A DNA stretch of 32,484 nucleotides from a virus. Below are positions 3,406 through 29,924 of this stretch, piece after piece (the stretch's first letter is position 1; each line of letters starts with the position of its first letter). The position numbers and the translations under genes are program-made. The stretch is taken from the IMG/VR virus record IMGVR_UViG_3300014839_000028, positions 1 to 32,484 of that record; one strand, 5' to 3'. A model generated the notes under the pieces. That model saw only the letters and a program-made list of their open reading frames with translations. It had not been told where the DNA came from and did not search any database.

Positions 3406-6400
3406 TCAGTCGACCAGGTGTCCCCGCACGGTGTGCTGGAGTGCGTCGGTGCCGTTGGAATTGCACCATAGGGCGGCGCTGGCGGCCAGGGGGGTTACGA
3501 GCGTCACCTTGTTGCGTCCGGCCGCGGCGGTGCCCCCGTTGAGATATTGCGTCCCGGCGCTCGCGCTACCCAGGCTGATCGTCTTGCTCGTGCCGGCGTT
3601 ATTCACGCACCAGTCGTCCAGGAGGATCTTCGTGTAATCGACGAAGACGGAGGCGCCGCAGAGCTGCTGGTTGCCGCTGGTGGTCGTATTCCACTGGATG
3701 ATCCAGTCTCGGCGGTCGGTGACCGGACTGACTCCGGCCACGAGCACGCCAGCGATCTTGTTTGCGCCGGTGTCCGCCACAACCAGAACCGGCTGCACGA
3801 TCGGCCGAAACAGCGGACCGATCGGCGTGAACGTCATCCCATACAGGTAGAACCGATCGTCAGTCGATGAATTGGCTCCCGTAAGGGTTGGAGAGCCGTT
3901 CACCGTCGCATACGCGATCCAGACAAAACCACCGTTGCCGAAAGCTGTCATCTCATAGCTGAACGCCGTCCATGCTCCAGTGGTTGACACAGCCACACCC
4001 CCATAGCGCACCGAATCGTTGCCGGCCATATTATTGCAAATAAGCACTCCATTTACGTGGGTCTGGCCAGTCGGGATATATACCCAACCTGAGCAGCGAT
4101 ACCTCTGGCCATAGACCAGCTTCGAAGCGATCGGCGCACGACGAGCGTAGTGAGAAGTTGAGGCTGTGGCATCGGCGTAGTAGAACAGGCAGTCGTTCTT
4201 CGATATAGTGCCGTCGGAGATTGCGTCTATGTTTCCGGCAATGGTTCCGCGAACACCCGTGAAACTATCTGCATCGGTGCCCCACGCCGGCGTATAGGAC
4301 GCGACCATTGAGCCCGTCCCGAGCTCTGCCCATGGTGGCAATTTCCCGGTCTGCACTTCACATGTGATGTCTGCCTGGGTGAGAACTCCGTTGATCGGAG
4401 CGCATGGTATCACCCGGCCATAAAACAGATCCGCCGCCGCGAAGATTCCGAGTGAGAAGAACGCGTCATCCACCGCCTGCGTCCATGCCGGCGGGGTCCC
4501 GCCGGTCGTCTCCGTCATGGTCTGCAGGACGCTGTTGATGTAGACCAATGGTGCCGATGTCCCATTCCATGTGACATGCAACGCAGTCCAACGGCCGGAG
4601 TATAGCGCGCGGAAGCCAGTGAGAGCAAGCTGCCTGTAATTCGCACCGGTCGGATCGCAGATCGCGATAATGAGCGTCCCAGAGCTGTTGATCCGGGCGG
4701 AATAGGCCCATGCGCTCGTTGAGCTATACGTTGCGTTGCTTGAACAGAGCAGCCACAGACCGAAATTTGCCGCGGCGTTGAACTCCGGAACGACGCCGAG
4801 CCAACGGATAGTGTTATTGCCAGCTCCGATCCCGGTTCCTGGCGTGCCCAAAGTCCAGTAAGGCCGCCCGTTCGCGGTCTGCCCATCGAAGAACAGGTAA
4901 TCCCGCGTCCCACGGGTCACGATCAGCGGAGCGATCTCGGAAGGGGTCGTATTCCCGCTCGCATCGAGCGTTCCGCCGCCGTCGACGTTCAGGCCTGGGA
5001 TGTGTTGAATGACCTTCGAACTGGCATCGAGGGTGGCCACTCCGGAGGCCGCGCCCATCTCGGTGCGCTTCACCTGGGCATCGTTGGTGACGTTGGCTAA
5101 ATCTCCTCCGAGCGCCAGGGTGCGGACGGTATTGGTCGATTGGGTATAGGATAGCAGGGTGCCATCGTTCTGAATTTGTCCGGAGGCTGGAGTCGCGACG
5201 GCAACTCCCAAGGGGATTGAGAGCGGCGCTCGGTATGCGTTCCCAGGCCCGAGCGTGACACCGAGGAATATCGGCGTGCCGCTCGTGCTCACATCCTGGT
5301 TGATGGTGCTACTTTTCGCGCTTGCGCTGATGCTATAGGTAGTCGACGCACGGGTCCAGGTTACGGCCGCGAAGATCGTGGCCGCATCGAGCGCGAATCC
5401 GATGGTGCTATGATGCAGGTCGTCCGCGCTCGCGTTCGCGGCGAGCAGATAGGTATGGTCAGCGGGGTCCTGAAGGTTGGTGGAAAGGTCGGCTTTATAA
5501 TTCACGCCGGTGGGAGAGGCGCTGAGAATCCACGCATTGACCGTAGTGCGCACGGTCTCACGTCCCGAGGTGTATGATGCGTTCCCGTTGAATGGTGTGA
5601 TCGTGCAGGCGATGACTTGCGCGCCCGTCGCTGCCGCGGCGGTATAGAGCGCCTGGAGGCTGGCCTCCACCGTGGCGGCCGATATATCGGCGGTGATGTC
5701 GTTAATCCCGCCCCAGATGACGATGTATTTCGCGTCCCCAGGCGCGGCGACTTCGAAGGGAAATCGAACGGCCATCCGTGTGAGAGTATTGCCGGGGACT
5801 CCGCGGCTCACGACATCCCAGCCAGCTGCGGAGCCGCCGAGCAGGGACAATAGAGTCGGCTCAAAAGTACCATAGGACAGACTATCGCCCATGCAATAAA
5901 CTCGCGTGGTCTGGACGACGGCGGCGGGAGCCAATGCCGCGGCGGCCTGCGCGGCCGTCATGTCGGTATGCGCGGCCGTCCCGCTTGTGGCGTTGCCGAC
6001 GAAACTATAGGCCGGGGCGTTCGCCATCATGGTCGTGGTGACCTGGCCGGCTCCGATCGTGGTTACGCCGCCGGAGTTGATCGTGACGTTCCCGGTCATC
6101 TGCAGGTCCGTCGCCACATTTGAAGCATTTCCGACCCGGATGTGGCCAGCGCTGAGGGCCGTGGATTGCTTCGAGTTGAAGAGCGACCAGTCGGCCGAGG
6201 CCAAATACCCGGCGACGGAGCCGCTCGCTTGGGGTATCGTCAGATGCGCGATGCTGATCCCCGTGCCAGTCAAGGGAGCGTCAGCAGTGACGAAGGAGAG
6301 TTTCGCGTTGAAGGCCGTCCAGTCGGCGGACGAAAGATAGCCGGCCGTAGAAGCGGTCGATTGAGCGATTGAGATAGCGGGCGTAACGCCCCCGGTGCTC

Positions 6401-6714
6401 GCAATCGGCCCGCTGCCGGTTACCGCTGTGACCGTGCCAGTACCTGGAGCGATCACCCAGGCACCGTCCCCGCGCAGGAACGTGCTCGATGAGGGAGTGC
6501 CGGTGATAGTGAGTTTACCAAGGCCGATCGACAGGTCGGGCAGAGTGAAGGTCGCTCCGGCGGCAATAGTCAGCGTACCGCCGCTGTCGATCGTCAGTGT
6601 GCCCCCAGACACTACCTGGCCGTCGCCGGACAGTTTCGGGGCGACGATCGGGGTGGCGGACCAGATCGACATGACCGATAGGACGAATAGGACGAATGGG
6701 CGGATGGTTCTCAT
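3406..6714 (-). CDS. Tail fibre/receptor-binding protein with SGNH (GDSL) esterase domain
   Basis: This 1102-residue protein has several modules. Residues 1-20 look like a signal peptide or membrane anchor (MRTIRPFVLFVLSVMSIWSA). Residues 25-90 are Gly/Thr-rich beta repeats. Two copies of an AGYLxSADWxxFNxK motif lie at about 124-138 and 168-182. An SGNH hydrolase domain spans about 270-450 with GDSLSYG (276-282), GGIND (335-339) and DDLHH (431-435), so the Ser, Gly, Asn and Asp/His blocks all appear intact. A LamG/jelly-roll-like stretch lies near 640-790, followed by carbohydrate-binding-like beta domains. It probably binds the cell surface and removes acyl groups from a glycan. The N-terminal signal is unusual for a virion protein, and placement before the tape measure is also odd. 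Confidence 0.75.
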   Translation of the reverse strand: MRTIRPFVLFVLSVMSIWSATPIVAPKLSGDGQVVSGGTLTIDSGGTLTIAAGATFTLPDLSIGLGKLTITGTPSSSTFLRGDGAWVIAPGTGTVTAVTGSGPIASTGGVTPAISIAQSTASTAGYLSSADWTAFNAKLSFVTADAPLTGTGISIAHLTIPQASGSVAGYLASADWSLFNSKQSTALSAGHIRVGNASNVATDLQMTGNVTINSGGVTTIGAGQVTTTMMANAPAYSFVGNATSGTAAHTDMTAAQAAAALAPAAVVQTTRVYCMGDSLSYGTFEPTLLSLLGGSAAGWDVVSRGVPGNTLTRMAVRFPFEVAAPGDAKYIVIWGGINDITADISAATVEASLQALYTAAAATGAQVIACTITPFNGNASYTSGRETVRTTVNAWILSASPTGVNYKADLSTNLQDPADHTYLLAANASADDLHHSTIGFALDAATIFAAVTWTRASTTYSISASAKSSTINQDVSTSGTPIFLGVTLGPGNAYRAPLSIPLGVAVATPASGQIQNDGTLLSYTQSTNTVRTLALGGDLANVTNDAQVKRTEMGAASGVATLDASSKVIQHIPGLNVDGGGTLDASGNTTPSEIAPLIVTRGTRDYLFFDGQTANGRPYWTLGTPGTGIGAGNNTIRWLGVVPEFNAAANFGLWLLCSSNATYSSTSAWAYSARINSSGTLIIAICDPTGANYRQLALTGFRALYSGRWTALHVTWNGTSAPLVYINSVLQTMTETTGGTPPAWTQAVDDAFFSLGIFAAADLFYGRVIPCAPINGVLTQADITCEVQTGKLPPWAELGTGSMVASYTPAWGTDADSFTGVRGTIAGNIDAISDGTISKNDCLFYYADATASTSHYARRAPIASKLVYGQRYRCSGWVYIPTGQTHVNGVLICNNMAGNDSVRYGGVAVSTTGAWTAFSYEMTAFGNGGFVWIAYATVNGSPTLTGANSSTDDRFYLYGMTFTPIGPLFRPIVQPVLVVADTGANKIAGVLVAGVSPVTDRRDWIIQWNTTTSGNQQLCGASVFVDYTKILLDDWCVNNAGTSKTISLGSASAGTQYLNGGTAAAGRNKVTLVTPLAASAALWCNSNGTDALQHTVRGHLVD

Positions 6715-6722
6715 CGGAGGGG

Positions 6723-7397
6723 TCAGGCGCAGGCGATCCAGGAGAGCTTGTAGCCGCTGGCAGGCGCCGGGGCCGATAGATCGGCCGTGAAACCATTAGC
6801 CGTGACGGTGGCGTCGCGGACGATCGCCCAGAGCTGGTCGCCGGCGGCCGGCCGCTGGATGCTGGCGACGACGGCGGCCGGTGGCGCGGAGAACGGCGGC
6901 GAGAAGGCCACGTCAATATGGTCAGCTGCGGCCGCAATGGTTGTCGTTCCGCGCTTGAGCATGTCGGAAGTGGGTTCTGTGAGTTCTGGTGGAGGGTACT
7001 CCGTTACTGGCGAGGAAACCTTGAAACTGTAGCGGAATGCACCGGTGATCCCGCGCACGGGCCCGCAGGCCGCGGAATCGATGACGGCATCGAGGAAAGA
7101 GACGATTTCCTGATCCCCCATCGGCCCGCACCAGAACCGCAGATCTTCCTGCTGCGGCAGGTCCCAGAAATACGTGAGCAATTTCCGCTCGGCGATCCGC
7201 TGCGTCGCATGGGAAACTGAGGCGACGAAGCTGATCGTCGCCGAGCGATTGCCACGCGGGAAGAAGGTGCTCGCGAGAGCGCGGATGAACTGAGCCTCGT
7301 CATTAACTTGCTGGCCATTGACCGTAAGGCTCCCACTGATCAGGCCGGTAGCCAGGTCATCGGTCGCCAACCAAAGGTTGCCGAAGGCGATTTTCAT
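6723..7397 (-). CDS. Tail protein, possible C-terminal lectin-like domain
   Basis: This 224-residue protein of unknown family lies between the tail-tube candidate and the fibre gene. The N-terminal half (MKIAFGNLWLATDDLATGL...) is soluble and mixed alpha/beta. The C-terminal 70 residues (ADHIDVAFSPPFSAPPAAVVASIQRPA, ending in GYKLSWIACA) have the repeating hydrophobic pattern of small fibre-tip beta domains such as H-type lectins. It ends 9 bases before the fibre start and begins 13 bases after the tube stop, so the three are probably translated from one message. It may be a tail-tip component or an adaptor for the fibre. The role is inferred from position and the domain resemblance is weak. 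Confidence 0.6.
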   Translation of the reverse strand: MKIAFGNLWLATDDLATGLISGSLTVNGQQVNDEAQFIRALASTFFPRGNRSATISFVASVSHATQRIAERKLLTYFWDLPQQEDLRFWCGPMGDQEIVSFLDAVIDSAACGPVRGITGAFRYSFKVSSPVTEYPPPELTEPTSDMLKRGTTTIAAAADHIDVAFSPPFSAPPAAVVASIQRPAAGDQLWAIVRDATVTANGFTADLSAPAPASGYKLSWIACA

Positions 7398-7409
7398 TCA
7401 CGGCGCGAA

Positions 7410-8573
7410 TCAGGGAGAGGCTACCCCGACAAAGAACCGGGAGCCGGACGTGGTGGCAGCGCCGCGGGCCTCCAGCTCGCCGGCGCGCGGGCCGGTCGGG
7501 GAGAATGTCTGGGGCAATTGCCTTGGCGCGGCATTGCAGACCTTCGTGTAGACGCCAGTTCCGGTGATGATCAGGTCGCCGCGCACCCTGGTCGCCCCAC
7601 GAGCGACCGCACCGCCTTGCATGCCCAAGAGGTCGAGCATCTGCTGCTCGCTGAACCCCATCGGGGAGAATGTCGCGCCGACATCGAGGCCGGAGATCCT
7701 CAGACCGAGCGTGCCGCGCCCATCGGTGACGATCGGCTCGGTCTTCAGCTGCGGGTTAAGGGTGATCGGGCCACGCGATTTGAAGGTGTCCCAAGGAGCG
7801 GCTCCGAAAGCCAGGGAGTACTCCTGGGTCGGGACGTTGGCGACCACCGGAGGCGTGGTGTCGGCGAGGGCCATCTTCGTGACGGTGTAAAGGCTGTTCG
7901 CATCGGACCAGGGGGCGTTGTTCTTTCGGAAACATCCGAAGGATACCGCGCCCAGCATGCTCGCGATCGCGGAGTGAATGATCGATGGCATTCCCGTCAC
8001 GGCGCCGTTCCAAAACGTGATGCGTCGGTTCGCGGCGAGACAGTCGATCTGGACGTATTCCTGTTCGATGATTGCAAAGTCGCCGCTGCCGACCGCGGTG
8101 ATGTCCACCTTGTTCGTCGCTGCGATCGCATGGGCCTCGGTATCGTGAAGGGTTCCGGCGACTCCCCAGAAATACGTTGTCGCTTCGGAAAGACCGGTCG
8201 GAACGGCCGCGCTCGGGAAAAGGCAGAAACGCACCGGGCAGCCAGTCCGGGGGGCGGCTGCGCCAACCAGCGTGATGACGTCGGTGTCGGCCGCGACCGT
8301 GGCCACGTCATAGCGCGGCGTGACCAATTGGCCGATGACCGGAGAGGTCCACCGGTGGAGAACTGCCAGCGCCAGGGCGGTCCATTCTCCGATCGGAGTG
8401 CCGGTCAAGATGACGGAATTGTCGAGCGCGCGCTGGTCGAGCGGACCGTAGAGGTCGCTGTCGATCGAGAACATGTCGGCGAGCGGAGTCAGTGTGAGTC
8501 CGCCCTTGAAATGGAAAGTCTGGCCGCGATGCGTGACGTTGGCCGGGCCTTCGAGGAGTGTGGCGAGGTTCAT
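7410..8573 (-). CDS. Major tail (tube) protein candidate
   Basis: This 387-residue soluble protein begins MNLATLLEGPANVTHRGQTFHFKGGLTL. It has no membrane segments and is rich in beta-prone stretches. Its position after the tail-terminator candidate and before the tape measure is where non-contractile phages keep the major tube gene. No separate sheath gene is seen nearby, so a siphovirus-like tail is favoured. The C-terminal part (FSPMGFSEQQMLDLLGMQGGAVARG, then GDLIITGTGVYTKVCNAAP) may form the inner tube sheet. The gene starts 24 bases after the upstream stop. A sheath subunit is an alternative, but it is short for that and no matching tube gene follows. Confidence 0.55.
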   Translation of the reverse strand: MNLATLLEGPANVTHRGQTFHFKGGLTLTPLADMFSIDSDLYGPLDQRALDNSVILTGTPIGEWTALALAVLHRWTSPVIGQLVTPRYDVATVAADTDVITLVGAAAPRTGCPVRFCLFPSAAVPTGLSEATTYFWGVAGTLHDTEAHAIAATNKVDITAVGSGDFAIIEQEYVQIDCLAANRRITFWNGAVTGMPSIIHSAIASMLGAVSFGCFRKNNAPWSDANSLYTVTKMALADTTPPVVANVPTQEYSLAFGAAPWDTFKSRGPITLNPQLKTEPIVTDGRGTLGLRISGLDVGATFSPMGFSEQQMLDLLGMQGGAVARGATRVRGDLIITGTGVYTKVCNAAPRQLPQTFSPTGPRAGELEARGAATTSGSRFFVGVASP

Positions 8574-18831: not shown

Positions 18832-19089
18832 TCATGATTGTCCGAGTCCTTCCTCGGCCAGGACGGCCTCCGCGCGGGCCATGATGCGCCAGCGTTTGCC
18901 GCTGAGCGGCGAAAGGAAGGAATTCGCCAATGACGCGTCGAGCAACTCGCGCAGGGCGAGCTGCAGCTGCGGAAGAGCGAGCTCCCGATGCCCCTCCGGG
19001 CGCAGGCGATCGAGCAGCTTCTGCTCCGACAGACCAAATTGAGCCTCGCGGCGCAACTCGATCAGAATATCGATGTGGAGCTCAGTCAT
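18832..19089 (-). CDS. Small protein, Mu gp26-position, possible winged helix
   Basis: This 85-residue protein has alternating helices and short strands (MTELHIDILIELRREAQFGLSEQKLLDRLR..., then RELALPQLQLALRELLDASLANSFLSPLSGKRWRIMARAEAVLAEEG). The pattern of helices followed by a hairpin is reminiscent of a winged-helix fold, and Mu gp26 occupies the same place between gp25 and the small terminase. Its start overlaps the preceding stop (19086-19089, ATGA). The function is unknown; a DNA-binding role in packaging or regulation is an inference. Confidence 0.65.
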   Translation of the reverse strand: MTELHIDILIELRREAQFGLSEQKLLDRLRPEGHRELALPQLQLALRELLDASLANSFLSPLSGKRWRIMARAEAVLAEEGLGQS

Positions 19090-19595
19090 TGGATCAGCCC
19101 TTTAGTCTCCCGCAGCAGGTTGATCACCCGCCCCGGTACGGCATCGATCCGGGCATTGGTGCTCTGAACTTCAACTTTGAGTTCACCCAGCGTCGCGGTC
19201 TGCCGGCCGGTCTCGGCCTGCAACACCTTCACGTCGCCGGCCATGGCTGCAAAATCCTCGTGGATCTTCTTGCGCGCACTGCGTTCGCGGCCCAGTTCCT
19301 CGTCCATCTTCGCGGCGAGCTCTTTGCGGGCCCCGCGTTCCTGCTCAAATTCCGACTCGATGCGCGCATGGCGGCCTTCGCATTCCGCCTCGGTGGGGGG
19401 CCGGTCTGCCGCCTGGACCATCAGCGGATCGGGCGGCCTTACGTTCATGACCTTGTCATCCGAGGAGCGCAGCTTTTTCACCGACGCGGCGATGCCAAGC
19501 AGCGCGTAGATGATGCCGGCGAGAAATGCCACGACGAACAGCCATTCCCGAAGGGCTTCGGCGGTCGGCGTCGCATCGGCTAAGATCGGGATCAT
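19086..19595 (-). CDS. Membrane-anchored coiled-coil protein, Mu gp25 (DUF2730)-like
   Basis: This 169-residue protein has one N-terminal membrane helix (about residues 16-38, LREWLFVVAFLAGIIYALLGIAASV). A linker and a long charged coiled coil (about 70-165, with EFEQERGARKELAAKMDEELGRERSARKK) follow. This architecture and the position match Mu gp25 (DUF2730). It is overlapped at both ends by neighbours with ATGA junctions. It could act in lysis as an inner-membrane spanin-like partner of the lipoprotein encoded just upstream, since that pairing (anchored coiled coil plus small outer-membrane lipoprotein) is the classic two-part spanin. That reading is an inference. Confidence 0.68.
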   Translation of the reverse strand: MIPILADATPTAEALREWLFVVAFLAGIIYALLGIAASVKKLRSSDDKVMNVRPPDPLMVQAADRPPTEAECEGRHARIESEFEQERGARKELAAKMDEELGRERSARKKIHEDFAAMAGDVKVLQAETGRQTATLGELKVEVQSTNARIDAVPGRVINLLRETKGLIQ

Positions 19596-19789
19596 TGGCG
19601 TTCGAGCTGGAATTCCAGCTGGTTGATCGTCTTCAGCGCATCACGGCACCATTCGGGCGCGGCCTGGCGGGCGGCGGCGAAGTCGGGCCGGGCGATGAGT
19701 CGCTTGGCGTTGTCGAGGCGGACCGTCGCGCAGCCAGCAGTCAGAAGGCAGATGCCGGTCAGGACACAGATGCAGAGCAGGCGCTTCAT
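19592..19789 (-). CDS. Small lipoprotein, o-spanin-like
   Basis: This 65-residue protein has a lipoprotein signal: MKRLLCICVLTGICLLTAGC, with a lipobox ending in Cys20. The mature part of about 45 residues contains APEWCRDALKTINQLEFQLERQ. It would be attached to the outer membrane. Its place among holin-like and coiled-coil membrane genes suggests an Rz1-like outer-membrane spanin, although Rz1 proteins are usually Pro-rich and this one is not. The start overlaps the preceding stop (ATGA, 19786-19789) and its stop overlaps the next start in the same way. Confidence 0.7.
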   Translation of the reverse strand: MKRLLCICVLTGICLLTAGCATVRLDNAKRLIARPDFAAARQAAPEWCRDALKTINQLEFQLERQ

Positions 19790-19965
19790 TGTGCTTTTGG
19801 TGGCCCGTCGATCGCGGCGTCGACGGCGGCGTCCTTTGCGGCCAGGCGGCCCGTCGCTTCGCGCTCACGCTCCTGGTCCCGCAGTGTGATCGCCTGGCGG
19901 ACCAGGCTCTCGACGGCCGGGAGAGCGCGCATCAGCGCAAGAAGAGCTGAGAGGAACGCGGCCAT
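19786..19965 (-). CDS. 59-residue lysis-cassette protein
   Basis: This small gene is bracketed by overlapping junctions: its ATG at 19963-19965 overlaps the holin stop (TGATG), and its TGA overlaps the lipoprotein start (ATGA). The protein begins MAAFLSALLALMRALPAVESL, a short hydrophobic segment that could associate with membrane. It continues as a charged, Ala/Glu/Arg-rich helix (TLRDQEREREATGRLAAKDAAV) and ends GPPKAQ. Its place between holin-like and lipoprotein genes suggests a lysis or spanin accessory role. No family is recognised. Confidence 0.65.
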   Translation of the reverse strand: MAAFLSALLALMRALPAVESLVRQAITLRDQEREREATGRLAAKDAAVDAAIDGPPKAQ

Positions 19966-20369
19966 CAGGCCTGCGGTTTCGCGGTGAACTGCGTGCCGAT
20001 CTTCACCGAGGCGAAGAAATCAAGGAGCCAGCATGCCCATTTGAACGGCAGGGAGGCTTCGACTTTGAACATCGCTGCATCGTCGGCGGTCGACGGCGTC
20101 GACTTCACATAGGCTTCGACCATTGAGACGATCGGTTTCGCGAAGAATCGCAGCGTGCCCATCACCGCGAGGATCGTGAGAATGACCGGGTATTTGAGGG
20201 CCAGGCCCGCGACAAGCGGAGTGGCCACGGCGCCGGCGGTGTCGGCCGAAATCAACGGCGATGAATCGGGCGGCGGGGATTGAGAGAACACGGAAATCGG
20301 CAGCATGCATACGACGCAAAAGGCGACTAAAGCGGTCGCGAGAAACAGGCGGGGGAGCAGGGTTTTCAT
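19965..20369 (-). CDS. Holin-like membrane protein
   Basis: This 134-residue protein is called from MKTLLPRLFLATALVAFCVVCMLPI at 20369; the longer frame adds a Cys/Arg-rich leader overlapping the gene upstream. Residues 6-28 form a signal or membrane segment, followed by a Pro/Ser-rich linker. A second hydrophobic segment spans about 46-72 (AGAVATPLVAGLALKYPVILTILAVMG). A basic, aromatic C-terminal part contains WACWLLDFFASVKIG. Size and topology suit a holin that permeabilises the inner membrane for lysis. It heads the tightly overlapped set that includes the lipoprotein. No endolysin motif is visible nearby. Confidence 0.6.
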   Translation of the reverse strand: MKTLLPRLFLATALVAFCVVCMLPISVFSQSPPPDSSPLISADTAGAVATPLVAGLALKYPVILTILAVMGTLRFFAKPIVSMVEAYVKSTPSTADDAAMFKVEASLPFKWACWLLDFFASVKIGTQFTAKPQA

Positions 20370-20376
20370 GGGAAAA

Positions 20377-20715
20377 TCATTCAGCCGGGAATGGCCGGCC
20401 GCGCCGGCGTTGGATTGGCGATCTGGGCAGGATCCGGAGCAGATCGGTCGCAAATGCGCCGGCCTGGTCGCGCGGGATGCGCAGCAGGACCTGCAGACTC
20501 TTGCCGTCAAGCGTGCCGAAGGTCAGGAGCGGCCCAGGCCCAGCGGCATTCTCGGCAGCCGCCGCGGTGATCGCTGTGAAGCAAACCGAAATCAGCGCGC
20601 GGGCCGGATGCGACCGGCGCGCGAGTTCGTCCTCGATATGAGCGAGGCGTTTGCCTTGGTCATCTCCAGTGTCGCTCTGACAGATTTCGGCGTGACTTTG
20701 CGGGGCCGGGGGCAT
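20377..20715 (-). CDS. Hypothetical protein upstream of holin-like gene
   Basis: This 112-residue frame ends 7 bases before the holin-like start, as expected for a cotranscribed gene. It begins MPPAPQSHAEICQSDTGDDQGKRLAHIEDELARRS. A small hydrophobic stretch (ALISVCFTAITAAAAENAAG) and a compact segment (LLTFGTLDGKSLQVLLRIPRDQAGAFATDLLRILP) follow; the latter looks protein-like. The hydrophobic part could be a membrane helix, giving an N-in topology. A comparable frame exists on the opposite strand but reads as low complexity. The start is uncertain. No family is recognised. Confidence 0.5.
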   Translation of the reverse strand: MPPAPQSHAEICQSDTGDDQGKRLAHIEDELARRSHPARALISVCFTAITAAAAENAAGPGPLLTFGTLDGKSLQVLLRIPRDQAGAFATDLLRILPRSPIQRRRGRPFPAE

Positions 20716-20729
20716 TGAGTGCCGCCCAG

Positions 20730-20769
20730 TAAAACAGAAATCCCACGCAGGCGTTAACCTTGCGTGGGA
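20730..20769 (-). terminator. Candidate rho-independent terminator before the late block
   Basis: Arms TCCCACGCA (20741-20749) and TGCGTGGGA (20761-20769) are perfect 9-base inverted repeats around an 11-base loop. Read leftward, the stem is followed by TTTCTGTTTT, a T-rich tail. This would stop repressor-operon transcripts before the lysis genes. A further direct copy of GCGTGGGAA (20762-20770 and 20771-20779) abuts it, so the same site might also bind a regulator. Confidence 0.5.
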
Positions 20770-20793: not shown

Positions 20794-20976
20794 TCAGCGC
20801 TTTGCCGCCTGCTTCGTGAAATTCTCGACGATTGTCACCGCGGAATCTATCGCGCAACCGATCCCGCCGCAATGGGGTCCTACCCGCATAAGATATTGGA
20901 GCGTCTCCGGCTTGATGCGCTGCGCTGGAAGCGTGACGCGGCGCGGGCGTGGTTGCCGCTTTGGATGGTGTTTCAC
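20794..20976 (-). CDS. Possible small basic protein
   Basis: This 60-residue frame begins MKHHPKRQPRPRRVTLPAQRIKPETLQYLM and ends NFTKQAAKR. It is strongly basic at the N-terminus and could bind nucleic acid. It lies between the secreted-protein gene and the terminator-like hairpin, in line with the repressor operon. A longer frame on the opposite strand (20764-21111) and another on this strand (20789-21079) compete with it. I prefer this one because it is on the strand of its neighbours and its composition is the more natural. Support is limited and no family is recognised. Confidence 0.38.
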   Translation of the reverse strand: MKHHPKRQPRPRRVTLPAQRIKPETLQYLMRVGPHCGGIGCAIDSAVTIVENFTKQAAKR

Positions 20977-21017: not shown

Positions 21018-21773
21018 TCAGTCGCCGCTCGATGGAAGGGTATATGAGAGCTCCGCTTCGGTATTGATGCCCCGAGCATTCGCTTCTTTCACCAGAAGAG
21101 TATCTACGTAGATCTGGATCCGGAAAGTCTCGCCACCGGTTGAACCTTCCTTCGCCCAGAAATATAATCGGTCACCGGTGCGAGCCTGGCAGGATCGGCT
21201 CCAGCCAGTCATCGCATTCACGTCGTGCGTTTGATTGTGCTGCTCGTTCTCGCCTGTCCGAACCTCCAGGCCAAGCGCCTCCCCGGAGAGCCGGTATTCG
21301 ACGAAATGAACTGCACGGTTAGCATCGGCGGGAAGTAGAACCGTAGAAACCTCTGTTGACATAGTCCTCGGCGTATTTTGCCTGGTTTCGGAGCGCGTGA
21401 CGCTCGCCGGTTGGGGATCGGATTTCGTTGGAGCCTGCGCCGATTGGGCGACGGCGGCGCGGTCCTGATCCTCTTTGGCTTGCGCTTTTTCGAGGGCTTC
21501 CTTCTCGATCGCCTCCTTCGCCGCGGCCGCTTTGGCGACGGCTTCCTTGTCGATGGGATAAACCTTGAGCAGCGCTTCGGGGAGAAATCGTTTCTCAAAC
21601 TTCAGTCCTCCGCCCTTATGCTTGATCGTGACCGTCGTGGCGGTCTCAGAGAGAACCTGCCAATCATAAAAAACCCGGCCATCCAACAGGCGGAGCGGTT
21701 CGTTTGCGGCCGAAGAGACGAAGAGCCATCCAATGACCGAGAATGCGAGAAAAGCGGCCTTGAGCGTTTTCAT
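21018..21773 (-). CDS. Secreted protein of the repressor operon, verrucomicrobial-type N-terminal domain
   Basis: This 251-residue protein starts at MKTLKAAFLAFSVIGWLFVSSAANEP (21773), in a TAATG overlap with the preceding gene; the longer frame overlaps that gene heavily. Residues 1-23 are a signal peptide. Residues 27-75 (LRLLDGRVFYDWQVLSETATTVTIKHKGGGLKFEKRFLPEALLKVYP) match a small beta domain I know as frequent in exported Verrucomicrobiota proteins. A Lys/Glu/Ala coiled coil (about 80-115) and a soluble C-terminal domain with several beta strands follow. Being made with the repressor, it is probably expressed in lysogens. A role in altering the envelope or excluding other phages is inferred, not shown. 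Confidence 0.72.
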   Translation of the reverse strand: MKTLKAAFLAFSVIGWLFVSSAANEPLRLLDGRVFYDWQVLSETATTVTIKHKGGGLKFEKRFLPEALLKVYPIDKEAVAKAAAAKEAIEKEALEKAQAKEDQDRAAVAQSAQAPTKSDPQPASVTRSETRQNTPRTMSTEVSTVLLPADANRAVHFVEYRLSGEALGLEVRTGENEQHNQTHDVNAMTGWSRSCQARTGDRLYFWAKEGSTGGETFRIQIYVDTLLVKEANARGINTEAELSYTLPSSGD

Positions 21774-22069
21774 TAGGATGAAGGTCGATTTCGAAGGAGC
21801 CGGGCTGTTTCCTCCGTCGCCGCAGTGATGCGGGTAACCTGCTGGAAGAACTCGGCCAGGCCGAAGAACAGCCCACAAGAGACAATGCTGATGAGGCCTG
21901 CAATAATCACCGGGCTATTGAGGCTCATACCACCGACAACAAGAGCACCGCACCCGCCAATCATCGTTATCCACCCGAGGACAAGATAACAGGAACTGAA
22001 GATCGACCGCGCCGGCGCGGGCACCCCCGCGGGTGGCGTAAGTTCTGGCTGCAGACCTGAGATGATCAT
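21773..22069 (-). CDS. Two-helix membrane protein of the repressor operon
   Basis: This 98-residue protein has a Pro-rich N-terminus, then two membrane helices at about residues 23-49 (SIFSSCYLVLGWITMIGGCGALVVGGM) and 53-76 (PVIIAGLISIVSCGLFFGLAEFF). It ends in a polar C-terminal helix (QQVTRITAATEETARLLRNRPSS). Its ATG overlaps the repressor stop (ATGA, 22066-22069), and its stop overlaps the next ATG (TAATG). The coupling indicates synthesis with the repressor in the lysogenic state. With the secreted protein downstream it forms a candidate lysogenic-conversion or superinfection-exclusion pair. No specific family is recognised. Confidence 0.72.
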   Translation of the reverse strand: MIISGLQPELTPPAGVPAPARSIFSSCYLVLGWITMIGGCGALVVGGMSLNSPVIIAGLISIVSCGLFFGLAEFFQQVTRITAATEETARLLRNRPSS

Positions 22070-22518
22070 GCTCCCTCCCGTTTAAGCCGTTCCGGTTTAT
22101 CGAGCGGAAATTTGTCCCGAAGTTCGAGGTAGGTATGTCCCACCCAGCAAGGAAGCGGTTTTCCGCGGCGGAGGTACTCAGCCAGGTATTCCTGACATTG
22201 TTGCTCTGTCGGCTCGGAGGCCGGCGGCTCGTGACCAGGGGTAATGGTCATAGGCGTGCTACGCGACGCAGAATAGGGTGGGCGCGCCTCCTCGAATCGC
22301 AATCCCTCTTCGTTTCGAGTGTTCCCTGGGTATACAAAGGCCAACTTCAACGCGTGAAGAGCTTGGAGCACTCGGACAGAAGGCGTTTTGTCCCCGCTCT
22401 CTATTTTGGCGATATAATTACGAGAGAGGGACAATCGCCCCGCTAGTCCAAGTTGGGTGAGTCCAAGAGCCGCGCGGACTTCACGGAATTGCTCTGCCGC
22501 TGTGTTCTTTTTTTCCAC
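22066..22518 (-). CDS. Phage repressor, Xre-type helix-turn-helix
   Basis: This DNA-binding protein has a classic Xre helix-turn-helix: AAEQFREVRAALGLTQLGLAGRLSLSRNYIAKIESGDKTPSVRVLQALHALKL. I prefer the GTG at 22516-22518 (about 150 residues, VEKKNTAAEQF...). The in-frame ATG at 22590 would place the operator-like palindrome inside the gene and run into the start of the divergent regulator. The C-terminal half (from about LRFEEARPPYS to LDKPERLKREGA) is Pro/Glu/Arg-rich and has no LexA-type Ser/Lys peptidase signature, so induction by RecA-stimulated self-cleavage is unlikely. It probably holds down the rightward early promoter and regulates itself. It is the first gene of a three-gene overlapping operon. 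Confidence 0.8.
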   Translation of the reverse strand: MEKKNTAAEQFREVRAALGLTQLGLAGRLSLSRNYIAKIESGDKTPSVRVLQALHALKLAFVYPGNTRNEEGLRFEEARPPYSASRSTPMTITPGHEPPASEPTEQQCQEYLAEYLRRGKPLPCWVGHTYLELRDKFPLDKPERLKREGA

Positions 22519-22520
22519 TT

Positions 22521-22539
22521 TCGTTGTTGACTCGTTGTT
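22521..22539. promoter_or_regulatory. Direct repeats in control region
   Basis: TCGTTGTT occurs twice (22521-22528 and 22532-22539) with starts 11 bases apart, about one helical turn. It lies between the repressor start and the palindrome at 22546. Such spacing is typical of side-by-side protein binding, so these are candidate operator half-sites. TTGACT at 22527-22532 overlaps them and could be a -35 element for the rightward genes, though no good -10 was found at the expected distance. Confidence 0.45.
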
Positions 22540-22545
22540 CTCTAT

Positions 22546-22561
22546 GTCCACAACTGTGGAC
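22546..22561. promoter_or_regulatory. Operator-like palindrome between repressor and Ner-like gene
   Basis: GTCCACAACTGTGGAC is a 7-base inverted repeat around a 2-base centre. It sits 13 bases before the ATG of the rightward regulator and 27 bases before the preferred repressor GTG. It is the best dyad in the divergent region and a likely binding site for the repressor or the Ner/Cro-like protein. Confidence 0.6.
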
Positions 22562-22563
22562 GG

Positions 22564-22592
22564 AGTAGACACATATGCATCCCAAAGCACAA
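22564..22592 (-). promoter_or_regulatory. Candidate leftward promoter for the repressor operon
   Basis: On the minus strand TTGTGC (22587-22592) and TCTACT (22564-22569) are separated by 17 bases and each matches four of six consensus bases. Transcription would start within or beside the palindrome, which would allow self-regulation. Matches this weak arise by chance, and the promoter would overlap the 5' end of the rightward regulator gene. Confidence 0.3.
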
Positions 22593-22757
22593 GAAAAATT
22601 CAGGCAGCGCGTGAAGATCTGGCTGGTCGCGAACAACAGAAGTGTCACGACGCTCGCAGCAAAGATCAGGCGTAGACGGGACACCGTTTCAAAGGCGATT
22701 AACGGCGGACGGTTTCCGCGTGTGCAGGATGAAATCATCCAGGAGATCGAGCGATGA
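22575..22757 (+). CDS. Ner/Cro-like early regulator
   Basis: This 60-residue basic protein contains a helix-turn-helix: VKIWLVANNRSVTTLAAKIRRRRDTVSKAINGGRFPRVQDEIIQEIER. It is the first rightward gene and is divergent from the repressor, the position of Ner in Mu and Cro in lambda-like phages. It would bind the operator region to turn down repressor and early transcription after infection or induction. GGAG at 22562-22565 lies 9 bases before the ATG. Its stop overlaps the next ATG (22754-22757, ATGA). It is shorter than Mu Ner and not clearly homologous; the functional name is by position and fold. Confidence 0.72.
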   Translation: MHPKAQEKFRQRVKIWLVANNRSVTTLAAKIRRRRDTVSKAINGGRFPRVQDEIIQEIER

Positions 22758-22978
22758 CCCCAGGACTTCCAGCCAAGGAATTTCTCGCCGAGTTCATCCT
22801 CGAACAGGCATCCGAGCAGCCATTGGAACGGCGCATCCTGCTTTACCGAGCGCTCTCTGTTGAGCTTCGCCATCGCGACCTTCAGAAGAAATGCACAGCC
22901 CTGGCCGACGAACTCGAATCGATCGAGGCGCGGCACAATCAGCTGCTGCTCGACCTGCGGCAAGGAGGGGCGAAATGA
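22754..22978 (+). CDS. Hypothetical early helical protein
   Basis: This 74-residue, mostly helical, charged protein begins MTPGLPAKEFLAEFILEQASEQPLERRILLYRALSVELRHRD. It continues into a coiled-coil-like segment (KKCTALADELESIEARHNQLLLDL). It has ATGA overlaps at both ends, so it is firmly embedded in the early operon. No family is recognised. Its size and helical content are compatible with a small regulatory or host-interaction protein, which is an inference. Confidence 0.65.
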   Translation: MTPGLPAKEFLAEFILEQASEQPLERRILLYRALSVELRHRDLQKKCTALADELESIEARHNQLLLDLRQGGAK

Positions 22979-23319
22979 AGTGCATCGCCCTATTCCTGAT
23001 CCTCTGCCTGGCCTGCGCGATCGCCTGCGCGGCCGAGCGCAAACCGACCACTCACGAGCTCTACGGCCCGATCCCGGCCCAGGTGATCAAGGCCATCCTC
23101 TCCGAGCACGGACTGCCGCCGACCGTCTTTACCGTGGTGCGCCGCGTGCCGCTGGAGTTGGGGGGGACGAACGCGAAGGAGAACCTCATGATCATCTCCT
23201 TGGTCGATCTGCCGGACAAGTTCCAGTTCGAGCGTGTCGTGCTCGCGCAGATCCGGGTCGACAAGACCCGCATCGAGCAGGCGGTCAAAGACGTGTCCTC
23301 GTGGGAGCCATCGAGGTAA
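22975..23319 (+). CDS. Exported small protein with HNH-like motif
   Basis: This 114-residue protein is called from MKCIALFLILCLACAIACAAERK (22975), whose ATG overlaps the previous stop. Residues 1-19 are a signal peptide; Cys in LACAIACA could also make it a lipoprotein, though the lipobox is poor. Residues 58-71 read VPLELGGTNAKENL, close to the HNH nuclease pattern (DHIIPLELGGxNxxxNL), but the catalytic Asp-His is replaced by Arg-Arg and no later metal-binding His is evident. It may be an inactive HNH relative working in the periplasm. An export signal in an early phage operon is unusual. Confidence 0.68.
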   Translation: MKCIALFLILCLACAIACAAERKPTTHELYGPIPAQVIKAILSEHGLPPTVFTVVRRVPLELGGTNAKENLMIISLVDLPDKFQFERVVLAQIRVDKTRIEQAVKDVSSWEPSR

Positions 23320-25007: not shown

Positions 25008-27263
25008 ATGTCATCCGAAACTGCCCTGCGAGCGTTCGCCCTCGAATCCCCGGCGGCCGAGTCTCACCTGGCCGCGCCCGTTCGATTCACGGTGCCGCTC
25101 CTCGACAATGACGAGTTCGCAAGCCTCAAGGCGAAGCGGCGCAGCGAGGTGAACCTCACGCTTCGAGTCCTGGAGCGCATTCACGCGCTGCGCGGCGAGC
25201 GAACCTTTGTGGCGGCGGTCGGCACGATGGCGATCGGCTACCGGCATATGCGTGGCTTTTCGGCGGCGTCGCTCCTGCGCAACTATTACGTCTTTATCCG
25301 CAGCGGCTGCGACTGGCGCAGCCTGGTCAAGGGCTACAAGGCGCCCTCGCAGCAGCCCAAGGAGTTCCAGGACTTCGTCAAGGGCCTGATCGAGCAGAAC
25401 CCGCGCAGCATCGCCCAGGCGCTGAGCGTGCTGCGAGATGAGCTCTGGCCGGCCGGCGTGTCGATCCCCGGCTATGGGACATGGCAGGAATGGTACGCAC
25501 GGACGTTTCCCGCGCAGGAAGTGCCAAAGGCATTCCCCCGCGTCTGGCCGGTGGGATGGAATGTGGGCAACCTGCGCCGCTACGGCCCAAGCCGAGCGCA
25601 GCGGGCGCTGTGGCAGCGGGGCATTGCGGCAGCGCACGGGCTGCTGCCGACGATCGTCCGGGATACCTCCCGCCTGCGGCCGATGGAGATGATCGTCATC
25701 GACGATTTCCAGCTCGACACGATGTGCTGCTTCCGTGGCGACCCGGAGCGCGGAATCAAGCCGCAGATCGCCTACGTCGCCGGACTGATGTCCATGTGCG
25801 TGGGCACGCGCAAGCCGCTCTCCTGGCTGCTGGGGCCGCTGGTCGAGCGCCAGGTGAAGCAGGCCGACGGCACGATGAAGGCGGTCGTCTGCAACATCCG
25901 TGCAGTGGACGTGCAGATGCTCCTCTACAAGATCTTCCAGGAGCACGGCCTGCCGCCGTACCCGATCACGATCCTCTGCGAAAACGCCACTGCGGCGATT
26001 TCGCCGGCGCTGGAGCTGATGCTCTCGACAATCTACGAAGGGCGGATCCGCGTCCATCGGACGTCTCTGATCGAGCACAAGACCCTCACCAACGGCTTTG
26101 TCGAGCGCGGCGGCACGCCGTGGGAGAAGGGCTGGATTGAGAGCTATTTCAACAAGCTCTGGAACATGCTCGCGCAGAGTCAACGCGGCTACAAGGGAAG
26201 CAACGAACGCCTGAACGCCCCCGGAGACTTGTCCGACAAGCTGAGAATCTGCGCCCGTCTGCTGGGCCAGGGCGCGGGCAAGCTCAATCTACCGCCGGAA
26301 GTGATCGACCTGCTTAAGACGCCGTTTCCGTCTTTGGAAGAGCTGGAGCAGGCATTCGCGAACGTCGTGTCGATGTCGGAGCGCCGCACGAAGCACAAGT
26401 GCCTCGGATTCGGCACCGTCACGGAATTTCGCTGGTCGCAACCGGAGCTTCCGGCGCCGGCGGGCATCGATCCCACCGGCCCGAACACCTTCCGCTCGCT
26501 GGCGTGCATCGCGCCGGAGCAGCAAAAGCTCATGCTCCCCGAAGAGCGCAAGGAGTCGCCGCTGGAGCGTTGGGAGCGACTGTCGGCGGACAATCCCCGC
26601 GTCGCGCTCAGGGCGCAAACGCTCGCCCTTTTCCTGTTATCGCCGAACAAGGCCACCTGGCGGAAGCACGCAGTGACCTTCGTTCGGGAAGGCACCGGCT
26701 ATAGCTACGTCGACGATGAGAACAAGCTAGCCGAAGTGCCAGAGGGGACGGATCTCCTTGCCTACGTCGACACCGCGCGGCCGTCCGTGGCGCTCGTGAC
26801 CAAGGTCGATGGCAGTTCGCTCGGCGTTCTTCGAATGCTCGGCAATAGCCCCCGCGGGGTCGACATCACCGACACCGCCGCCATGGACGATGCTCGGGCG
26901 CGCCGGGCCGCGATCGTCAACCGCTTGCTCGCCACGGTGCGGGCACGGCCGTTGCACGAGGCTGCCAACCAGCAGCTGGCCGCCAACCAGGCGCACAACG
27001 ACGCGATCGTCGATACCTGGAAGCGGTCCATGACACCCGCCGCAATCGTGCCCGGTGCGCCCCGGCCGGAGGCGGCGATCGCCACAGCCGATATGGTCGC
27101 CGCCGGAATCGGCGTAGCGGCCTCACGCCAGGCCGAGGCCAGCGCCCAGGCACGCGCGCTGCGCCGCTGTAGCAACGAGGCCGAGGCACTCCTTACCGAG
27201 GCCGCAATCCCCGCCGCGCCGGCTTCGCAGTCGGCGGAATTCCGACCCGAAGACCTTCTGTAA
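25008..27263 (+). CDS. MuA-like transposase
   Basis: This 751-residue DDE-family transposase for replicative transposition lies directly upstream of a MuB-like ATPase. Residues 40-200 carry helical DNA-binding regions. The catalytic core includes MEMIVIDDFQLD (Asp232/233), TILCENATAAIS (residues 321-332) and KGWIESYFNKLWN (Glu378). The position expected to hold the second catalytic Asp is Glu325 (codon GAA). The C-terminal 130 residues are Ala/Arg-rich, where MuA contacts MuB and ClpX. The core layout resembles MuA, whose length is 663. No Shine-Dalgarno is visible; the 49 bases before the ATG are pyrimidine-rich. This enzyme is the strongest evidence that the element is a transposable phage. 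Confidence 0.86.
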   Translation: MSSETALRAFALESPAAESHLAAPVRFTVPLLDNDEFASLKAKRRSEVNLTLRVLERIHALRGERTFVAAVGTMAIGYRHMRGFSAASLLRNYYVFIRSGCDWRSLVKGYKAPSQQPKEFQDFVKGLIEQNPRSIAQALSVLRDELWPAGVSIPGYGTWQEWYARTFPAQEVPKAFPRVWPVGWNVGNLRRYGPSRAQRALWQRGIAAAHGLLPTIVRDTSRLRPMEMIVIDDFQLDTMCCFRGDPERGIKPQIAYVAGLMSMCVGTRKPLSWLLGPLVERQVKQADGTMKAVVCNIRAVDVQMLLYKIFQEHGLPPYPITILCENATAAISPALELMLSTIYEGRIRVHRTSLIEHKTLTNGFVERGGTPWEKGWIESYFNKLWNMLAQSQRGYKGSNERLNAPGDLSDKLRICARLLGQGAGKLNLPPEVIDLLKTPFPSLEELEQAFANVVSMSERRTKHKCLGFGTVTEFRWSQPELPAPAGIDPTGPNTFRSLACIAPEQQKLMLPEERKESPLERWERLSADNPRVALRAQTLALFLLSPNKATWRKHAVTFVREGTGYSYVDDENKLAEVPEGTDLLAYVDTARPSVALVTKVDGSSLGVLRMLGNSPRGVDITDTAAMDDARARRAAIVNRLLATVRARPLHEAANQQLAANQAHNDAIVDTWKRSMTPAAIVPGAPRPEAAIATADMVAAGIGVAASRQAEASAQARALRRCSNEAEALLTEAAIPAAPASQSAEFRPEDLL

Positions 27264-27268
27264 AGAAT

Positions 27269-27298
27269 GCGCCCCGGCCGTTCCAGCGGCCAGGGCGC
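27269..27298 (+). other. Hairpin between transposase and MuB-like genes
   Basis: Arms GCGCCCCGGCCG (27269-27280) and CGGCCAGGGCGC (27287-27298) pair over 11 of 12 positions with one C/A mismatch, around a 6-base loop. It begins 6 bases after the transposase stop. No T-run follows, so an RNA stability or attenuation role is more likely than simple termination. Confidence 0.55.
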
Positions 27299-27335
27299 GA
27301 GTAGCCACAACGTCAGTCCAGCAAAGACCCCCATC

Positions 27336-28502
27336 ATGGCCAACGATACCCAAAACCCAAATCCGCCTGAGGAGCAACCCTCGGGTGTTCCCTCCGGCAA
27401 CCGGGGCGACACTGTCCGCGCCTCCTGGTACGTATCCCTCGACGATCTCCGCAAGGCCGTAAGCAATTCAAGCGAGCATGCCCAGGAGCTGATCGTCTGG
27501 TGTTACCTCTGGTGCATTGATGACGGGCATCCCGTCAGTCTCGCCGAATTCTCCGAGCGAGTCGCCGTCGATAAGACGACGATCGGGCGGATAATCCGCG
27601 GCTCTTACACTCACCCGGAGAGCGGCAGCCGGCTGCCGATCAGCGACAAGCTCGTGCGGGCCATGGAGCTGTTCCGGAAGATGGAGCAAGAGCGCGCCCG
27701 CGCCACCGACACCGGCTTTGTCCCGACGCCCACGGCGAAGCGCATCTGGACCGCATGCGATCTCGCCCGCGAGAGCCAGAGCCCGGTCTTCATCGTCGGC
27801 CCGTCACACATCGGCAAGACAAAGGCCCTGATCGCCTACAAGGAGGAGAACAATCATGGCCACACCGTTTACGTGCGGCTGCAGGCCGCCAGCGGCCTCG
27901 GCGGCATGGTGAAGCGCATCGCCAAGGAGCTCGGCGTTTCGGACAAGGCCAACACCGCGGACCTGGTCACGCGCATCAAGCGCGCCCTGCGGCCCAACAT
28001 GCTGCTCATCCTCGATGAGGTGCACGAGCTCATGTACACGTACCGCAAGGAGAGCTTCTTCGCCTGCATGGAGGTGATCCGCGAAATCTATGACGAGACC
28101 ACCTGCGGCCTGGTGCTCTGCGGGACGAAGCTGCTCTTCAGGCGGATCGAAGAAAACCGCGCCGAGCTGGAGCAGTTGCTGCGCCGCGGCGTCCACAAGG
28201 TCGTCCTCGCCGATCAGCCAACCAAGGGCGACGTGACCGCGATTCTCAACGTCGTGGGCCTGGATCTGCCAGACAAGGCAATGGTCGTGACCGTGCGGGT
28301 TGGCGGCCAGGCCGTGGCGGAGCGGCCGTACGAGCTGCTGAAGCAGATCGGCCGCGAGGAGGGCCTTAAGTCTATCTGCGAGCGCCTGCGCTACGGCCAG
28401 AAGTTCGCCAACAAGGCCGGCGAGAAGCTCACGTGGGATCACGTCGTGCGCGCCCACCTGACGATCAAGAAGAACGCGATGCCGGACAACGACTGGGACT
28501 GA
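27336..28502 (+). CDS. MuB-like AAA+ ATPase, transposition target protein
   Basis: This 388-residue protein starts at MANDTQNPNP (27336); the longer frame includes the hairpin and reads poorly. A disordered start is followed by a helix-turn-helix near residues 66-90 (VSLAEFSERVAVDKTTIGRIIRGSY), as in the MuB N-terminus. The ATPase core has Walker A GPSHIGKT (155-162) and Walker B MLLILDEVHEL (222-232), with a likely sensor at GLVLCGTKLL. MuB binds target DNA, brings it to MuA and stimulates strand transfer, and it protects DNA near the phage from self-insertion. Position after the transposase confirms the pairing. MuB itself is 312 residues; this one is longer. Confidence 0.87.
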   Translation: MANDTQNPNPPEEQPSGVPSGNRGDTVRASWYVSLDDLRKAVSNSSEHAQELIVWCYLWCIDDGHPVSLAEFSERVAVDKTTIGRIIRGSYTHPESGSRLPISDKLVRAMELFRKMEQERARATDTGFVPTPTAKRIWTACDLARESQSPVFIVGPSHIGKTKALIAYKEENNHGHTVYVRLQAASGLGGMVKRIAKELGVSDKANTADLVTRIKRALRPNMLLILDEVHELMYTYRKESFFACMEVIREIYDETTCGLVLCGTKLLFRRIEENRAELEQLLRRGVHKVVLADQPTKGDVTAILNVVGLDLPDKAMVVTVRVGGQAVAERPYELLKQIGREEGLKSICERLRYGQKFANKAGEKLTWDHVVRAHLTIKKNAMPDNDWD

Positions 28503-29062: not shown

Positions 29063-29340
29063 AATACATCATCTTCCGCTCTCCCGAAGGCCCGCGCGTC
29101 TCGATCTTCGCGGCCCCAACCACGCACGCTGAAGAGGCCGCGGCACACCCCTCGTGGAAGCCAGAGTCCGCCGGCTTCCTGGTCTTCCGCAGCATTGACT
29201 GTGTCCAGTGCTTCGACCGCTCGGAATCTCTCAACCTCAAACCTCGCGCGATGGACGACTCGATGATCGAGGTGCTCACCGCGGCGACACTCATGCTCAC
29301 CACCGTTCCTCCCCCACCAGTCACCGTCCGTTTCCAATGA
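29059..29340 (+). CDS. Hypothetical early protein
   Basis: This 93-residue product is read from GTG at 29059 in a GTGA overlap with the preceding stop, giving MKYIIFRSPEGPRVSIFAAPTTHAEEAAAHPSWKPESAGFLVF. The N-terminal 60 residues look like a compact alpha/beta domain with Cys-rich SIDCVQCF. The C-terminus is hydrophobic to Pro-rich (LMLTTVPPPPVTVRFQ). The longer frame starting at 28948 is an artefact, since its leader overlaps the membrane-protein gene. Its stop overlaps the Gam start. No family is recognised. Confidence 0.65.
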   Translation: MKYIIFRSPEGPRVSIFAAPTTHAEEAAAHPSWKPESAGFLVFRSIDCVQCFDRSESLNLKPRAMDDSMIEVLTAATLMLTTVPPPPVTVRFQ

Positions 29341-29924
29341 CTACTCGCATCAAACTCCCCACACTTAAAACCCGCGAGGATTTCGACTTCGCCATCGGCG
29401 AGGTCGCGCAAATCACGGTTCAGATCCGCAAAATCGAGGCCGCCCGCGACCACACTGTCCAGGCCATCCAGGCCGCGTACGGCGGACATATCTCTCCGCT
29501 GCAGGCCAGGTGCAACGCCCTTGTCGCCCAGGCTGAGCAATACGCCGAGGCACACCGCGACGAGCTGCTGCCGGGCAAACTCAAGAGCGCTGATACTCCG
29601 CTCGCCACGTTCGGCTTCCGTACCGGCATGCCGGCATTGAAGCTCCTATCGAAATGGACCTGGGAGAAGGTGCTGGAGCATCTTCGCACCTCCTATGGCC
29701 TCGATTGCTTCATCCGCAACAAGCCCGATGTTGACAAGGCCAAGATCATAGCTGCGACCGAGGACGGCGCGCTGTCCTTTCCTACGCTCACACCCGACGG
29801 AGAGGAGATGACCTTTGAAATTCCGGTCGCGCAGATCGGCGTGAAGATCGTCCAGGAAGAGACGTTCTTCATCGAGCCGAAGCTCGATGACGCCAGCCAG
29901 GTCAAGGCAACCGCTGCGAAATAG
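29337..29924 (+). CDS. Gam-like host-nuclease inhibitor (DNA end protection)
   Basis: This 195-residue protein starts at MTTRIKLPTLKTREDFDFAIGEVAQITVQIRKIEAARDHTVQAIQ (29337, ATGA overlap). The long N-terminal helices match the Mu Gam pattern. So does the following beta region (PLATFGFRTGMPALKLLSKWTWEKVLEHLRTSYGLDCFIRNKPDVDKAKI). Mu Gam is a Ku-related protein that binds DNA ends and shields phage DNA from exonucleases. Mu Gam is 174 residues. The C-terminal part (FEIPVAQIGVKIVQEETFFIEPKLDD) continues the typical family ending on the idea that infecting DNA needs end protection. The assignment is good and fits the transposable-phage setting. Confidence 0.83.
   Translation: MTTRIKLPTLKTREDFDFAIGEVAQITVQIRKIEAARDHTVQAIQAAYGGHISPLQARCNALVAQAEQYAEAHRDELLPGKLKSADTPLATFGFRTGMPALKLLSKWTWEKVLEHLRTSYGLDCFIRNKPDVDKAKIIAATEDGALSFPTLTPDGEEMTFEIPVAQIGVKIVQEETFFIEPKLDDASQVKATAAK

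Follow-up and report, generated by a model that had tools for sequence, protein, structure and literature searches.

A membrane protein and a secreted protein in the repressor operon of a B3-like phage of Verrucomicrobiota: a candidate superinfection-exclusion cassette

Directly after the immunity repressor of a phage of Verrucomicrobiota, a little studied group of phages, lie two genes, one for a membrane protein and one for a secreted protein, and the locus raises the question of what such a pair might do in a lysogen. The window, i.e., the whole stretch of DNA analyzed here, is an IMG/VR virus contig of 32,484 nucleotides. PHROG matches identify a transposase (25008-27263, + strand), a MuB-like transposition protein (27267-28502, +) and Gam (29208-29924, +), while portal, protease, major head protein and TerL are found on the opposite (-) strand. 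In the gene map the early genes run rightward, divergent from the repressor and late genes, which run leftward, and this layout is the one described for the B3-like phage Fc02 (PMC9936078). The window is thus a transposable phage of Verrucomicrobiota with MuA, MuB and Gam homologues, and is B3-like in layout. Its TerL relatives come from genome assemblies of Verrucomicrobiota as well as from IMG/VR contigs. Relatives were recovered via TerL and then via TerL and MuA alignments, of which the MuA alignment added further ones; viral scans with one protein at a time (secreted protein, membrane protein or transposase) returned zero relatives. Elsewhere in the genome, a 1102-aa tail-region protein (3406-6714, -) starts with a signal-like hydrophobic stretch, which is unusual for a tail gene.

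The repressor operon and its two downstream genes

The immunity repressor (22066-22590, -) carries an HTH_3 domain (Pfam E 7.7e-12), matches repressor PHROGs and aligns with the repressors of six relatives. Judged by the alignment with relative L052, its translation probably starts at a GTG at about 22518 and not at 22590. The first early gene, which is divergent from it, encodes a ner/cro-like regulator (22575-22757, +; PHROG transcriptional repressor, E 6e-4) and is conserved in L052, L054 and L060. Two genes after this switch, an early-operon gene (22975-23319, +) encodes a protein with a signal peptide and, by eye, an HNH-like motif (RRVPLELGGTNAKENL), which has no Pfam nuclease match.

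The first-pass annotation had proposed that the two genes overlap the repressor and each other and that lysogens therefore likely make both proteins, and both overlaps are indeed present. The TGA of the repressor overlaps the ATG of the membrane-protein gene (21773-22069, -) in an ATGA (22066-22069, -), an arrangement also seen in L003 and L054, and the TAA of the membrane-protein gene overlaps the ATG of the secreted-protein gene (21018-21773, -) in a TAATG (21771-21775, -). A good Shine-Dalgarno sequence for the membrane protein (GGGAGGGAGCATGA) sits within the 3' end of the repressor gene. No clear Shine-Dalgarno sequence was found ahead of the TAATG, and the secreted protein therefore probably relies on membrane-protein translation for its own.

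The placement of both genes in the repressor transcription unit is also supported. There are no minus-strand terminator-like sites within 21018-22590, and the unit ends at a strong intrinsic terminator (20741-20769, -; TCCCACGCAAGGTTAACGCCTGCGTGGGA followed by TTTCTGTTT, -19.3 kcal/mol; z -2.8), which was equalled by 0 of 20 shuffled sequences and separates the repressor unit from the late genes. The last ORF ahead of this terminator, after the secreted-protein gene, is a possible gene for a 60-aa cytoplasmic protein (20794-20976, -), for which the ORF is the evidence. Beyond the terminator lies a late-operon head gene (20377-20715, -) with apparent counterparts, by eye, at the equivalent position of several related phages; the gene matches no Pfam or PHROG family. 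The pair thus has the structural features of a conversion cassette in a repressor operon, as it is on the same strand as the repressor, directly after it with no terminator in between, and cut off from the late genes. The gene order and location of the pair are well supported, and since both genes are on the message of the repressor, both proteins are expected in the lysogen, where their production is very likely.

Two envelope proteins and a host-type secreted domain

The membrane protein has 98 amino acids, and hydropathy gives the two membrane helices that had been claimed for it, followed by a C-terminal tail. Searches of Pfam, PHROG, NCBIfam and PADLOC gave no family above cut-off for it, and its coding score is weak on its own (7.3). 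The secreted protein, with 251 amino acids and a homologue in the corresponding place of L003, is clearly coding (score 46). The domain order predicted for it at first pass was recovered in full, the C-terminal domain at low model confidence. A signal peptide (residues 1-23; 21705-21773, -) is evident from sequence and hydropathy, and is followed by a verrucomicrobial secreted N-domain (residues 25-73; 21555-21701, -) that is modelled as an SH3/Sm-like small beta fold with pLDDT of about 80-87. Foldseek aligned this domain with Hfq/SH3-like small barrels at an rmsd of 1.3-1.5 over 40 residues, with E above 0.4 and thus not significant. The structure model continues with a coiled-coil helix (residues 76-111; 21441-21548, -) and is poor past residue 112 at full length. 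A single-sequence model of residues 138-251 (21021-21362, -; pLDDT 63) suggests an all-beta, Ig-like domain, for which the fold matches are weak. An MmpS-type domain (PF05423), considered for this C-terminal part, was rejected, as no Pfam family matched at E up to 5. The whole protein matches no PHROG, NCBIfam or PADLOC family above cut-off, exclusion and defence families included. An envelope location of the pair is highly probable.

The first reading, by which both proteins are unlike anything known, is only partly right. It stands for the membrane protein, which matched no family, and fails for the N-domain, a domain that many secreted proteins of the host share. This domain is 39% identical to that of P0005, the same-position gene of L003 (E 5e-8). 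A two-row profile detected it in 51 of 288 Verrucomicrobiota genomes (E 0.01), and a 14-row profile in 112 of the 288 with at most seven copies per genome (E 1e-5). The alignment of its members (A6) has the motif DGRxF...H.GG...LP, in which H, L and P are invariant. The members have no relevant Pfam match, and the sole NCBIfam match, to an N-terminal domain from Leptospira, is below threshold. The host proteins that were read usually have a signal peptide ahead of the domain and a coiled coil after it, and the window protein has the same composition, with the motif domain after its signal peptide and then the coiled coil. The nearest host relatives are 37% identical over about 110 residues, spanning the N-domain and the coiled coil. 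However, the host proteins differ in that they are chromosomal, in ordinary neighbourhoods without phage genes at the loci examined, and have other C-terminal parts. The C-terminal domain of the window protein has no true relative in the 288 genomes, the lone match being a wrong-frame artefact.

Envelope proteins after the repressor in related phages

The interval from the repressor to the first late gene, here called the slot, was read gene by gene in 17 phages including the window. At least one envelope-directed slot protein (signal-peptide, lipoprotein or membrane) is present in 15 of them, the two without being L007 and L011. L003, with a TerL 63% identical to that of the window, has the same order of repressor, ATGA, membrane protein and secreted protein with the same N-domain. 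L003 is also the only other phage with this domain in the slot among 16 related phage or host records searched. The remaining phages carry lipoproteins (L005, L006, L052, L053, L060), membrane-anchored proteins (L009, L010, L055, L061), two-helix proteins (L054, L056, L058) or a secreted protein (L057), and the upstream regulator of L005 resembles a ribbon-helix-helix protein, not an HTH repressor.

By a hydropathy rule, envelope-directed genes make up 19 of about 25 in the slot; among the early genes the figure is 21 of 173, and among the late structural genes it is 17 of 73. Using a conservative 19 of 27, the enrichment has Fisher p-values of 6e-10 against early and 3e-5 against late structural genes, in what is a rough test, with slot genes counted by hand and control genes taken from a simple gene caller. 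Additionally, the mean G+C content is 55.5% in the slot and 62.8% in the late genes, and lower in the slot in 13 of 14 phages (p 2e-4). Hairpins similar to the terminator of the window (TCCCAC...GTGGGA) occur at the same place in L055 and L058, and other strong hairpins in L006, L011, L052, L053, L057 and L060, i.e., in eight relatives; the remaining phages have no clear terminator at the slot end.

The cargo is mostly unrelated in sequence across the phages. BamE-like slot proteins, all on the minus strand, are a lipoprotein of L060 (7324-7698) above the Pfam cut-off, a protein of L061 (7155-7526) just below it and a weak case in L052 (6592-7248). L056 has a DUF2971 protein in the slot (6614-7543, -; Pfam E 1.7e-10, above cut-off), which overlaps the end of the repressor gene. 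A lipoprotein of L053 (7159-7713, -) has a C-terminus that is TonB/TolA-like by eye, with no Pfam match. The two-helix proteins of the window, L003 and L054 all start at an ATGA overlap with the repressor gene. Common ancestry of the two-helix proteins in the window, L003, L054, L056 and L058 was tested and is unsupported except for L054 with L056 (hhalign 97%). Therefore, these proteins share position and topology and are not a demonstrated family.

The position after the repressor had been described as typical of superinfection-exclusion or lysogenic-conversion genes. This is partly supported by the relatives, which place other envelope proteins there, as expected of exchangeable lysogeny cargo. 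These results suggest that the slot is a swappable site for changing the surface of the infected host, and its cargo probably protects that surface. Since most slot proteins of the relatives are not related to the pair in the window, the function need not be common to all.

Superinfection exclusion and its alternatives

Several known systems resemble the pair. In the Pseudomonas phage Fc02, as in the window, the repressor and late genes are on one strand and ner and the transposase are divergent, and an accessory gene directly follows the repressor ahead of the holin-endolysin and packaging genes; the immunity region of Fc02 contains exclusion genes (olg1/gene 10), and the two phages were compared by layout (PMC9936078). 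The Fc02 lysogen transcribes repc together with the next gene, e4 (PMC9936078). However, olg1 lies ahead of the repressor and encodes a soluble protein, and e4 has no known function. Genes 43 and 44 of the Gordonia phage CarolAnn, one of which encodes a membrane protein, are cotranscribed with the immunity repressor and are sufficient for defence of the lysogen (PMC6426606), and in the lambda cI-rexA-rexB operon, as covered in PMC6426606, the lysogen likewise expresses two genes that follow the repressor; the window proteins differ in having no defence-family match. Envelope-located exclusion proteins are known from the prophage of Streptococcus thermophilus phage TP-J34, where the lipoprotein Ltp of the lysogeny module is transcribed and stops DNA injection (PMC3952083), and from P22, where the inner-membrane protein SieA is made from the prophage (PMC10883804). 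Ltp differs in being a lipoprotein of a phage with a Gram-positive host, and neither PHROG nor Pfam links it to the window proteins. SieA is not known to be encoded in a repressor operon and has no PHROG link to them. As no known exclusion family was matched, the unit is not assigned to one; it is a new version of the known repressor-operon cassette arrangement.

From the position of the pair and the precedents of Fc02, CarolAnn, Ltp and SieA, we propose superinfection exclusion as its most likely, though tentative, function, with a probability of about 0.45. The two genes would form a lysogenic-conversion cassette in the repressor operon, made when the prophage is repressed and blocking superinfecting phages. 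Translation of the repressor would feed that of the inner-membrane protein via the ATGA, and this in turn would feed translation of the secreted protein via the TAATG, such that repression of the prophage would always entail production of both. The secreted protein, which combines a host-envelope-type domain with a phage-specific beta domain through the coiled coil, would most likely be periplasmic, near or together with the membrane protein, and might stop the DNA injection or receptor use of superinfecting phages. The envelope location, the host-type domain, the phage-specific second domain and the rapid exchange of the slot fit exclusion at the step of DNA entry or receptor use.

The same four properties are also compatible with the main rival, a lysogenic conversion without exclusion, where the pair would copy or modulate a host envelope function and raise the fitness of the lysogen. 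The widespread occurrence of the N-domain in host secreted proteins from ordinary chromosomal neighbourhoods argues for such a role, as do the nearest host relatives with their 37% identity over about 110 residues of domain and coiled coil. However, the C-terminal domain is without a host relative in 288 genomes, and the quick replacement of slot cargo is more in keeping with an arms race than with a gene of lasting fitness value; we regard a fitness role as unlikely, though still a serious competitor. Less probable is an abortive infection resembling Rex and CarolAnn, with the two-helix protein as a gated channel and the secreted protein as its sensor or brake. Two genes in the unit of the repressor, one of them for a membrane protein, are what CarolAnn 43/44 and cI-rexA-rexB have in common with the window, whereas the partners in those systems are cytoplasmic, as is RexA, and the partner here is secreted. 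The membrane proteins also differ, as RexB has four helices and CarolAnn gp43 reportedly has four transmembrane domains and a DUF4747-like partner, compared to two helices here, and no sequence match was found.

Since the slot adjoins lysis and packaging genes, a lysis role could alternatively be considered, with the membrane protein as holin or antiholin and a spanin function for the secreted coiled-coil protein, and slot proteins of L010 (E 3e-4) and L055 (E 6e-5) have weak Rz-spanin PHROG matches. Such a role is very unlikely, given that past the terminator the window has a lysis-type set of its own at 19086-20372 (holin-like, lipoprotein and membrane coiled-coil genes). Moreover, a holin expressed from the repressor operon would kill lysogens, and neither window protein matches a lysis PHROG, spanins included. 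The membrane protein has a weak coding score and close relatives are lacking, which would also suit late or structural genes or non-functional ORFs, but the terminator divides the pair from the late genes, the secreted protein is clearly coding and the order is conserved in L003, which leaves this explanation with hardly any probability.

Beyond the window, superinfection exclusion could extend to a more general and more doubtful picture, where transposable phages of Verrucomicrobiota have a common repressor-operon slot for rapidly exchanged, envelope-targeted exclusion modules, and where a periplasmic targeting domain of the host has been fused to a blocking domain of the phage. If this reading of slot and fusion is true, the secreted protein would represent a new class of exclusion proteins that arose by domain capture from the host, and would show how phages reuse a secreted host domain. 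The gene after the repressor, which is easy to locate, would then point to a large and unrelated set of envelope proteins by which lysogens are changed or protected.
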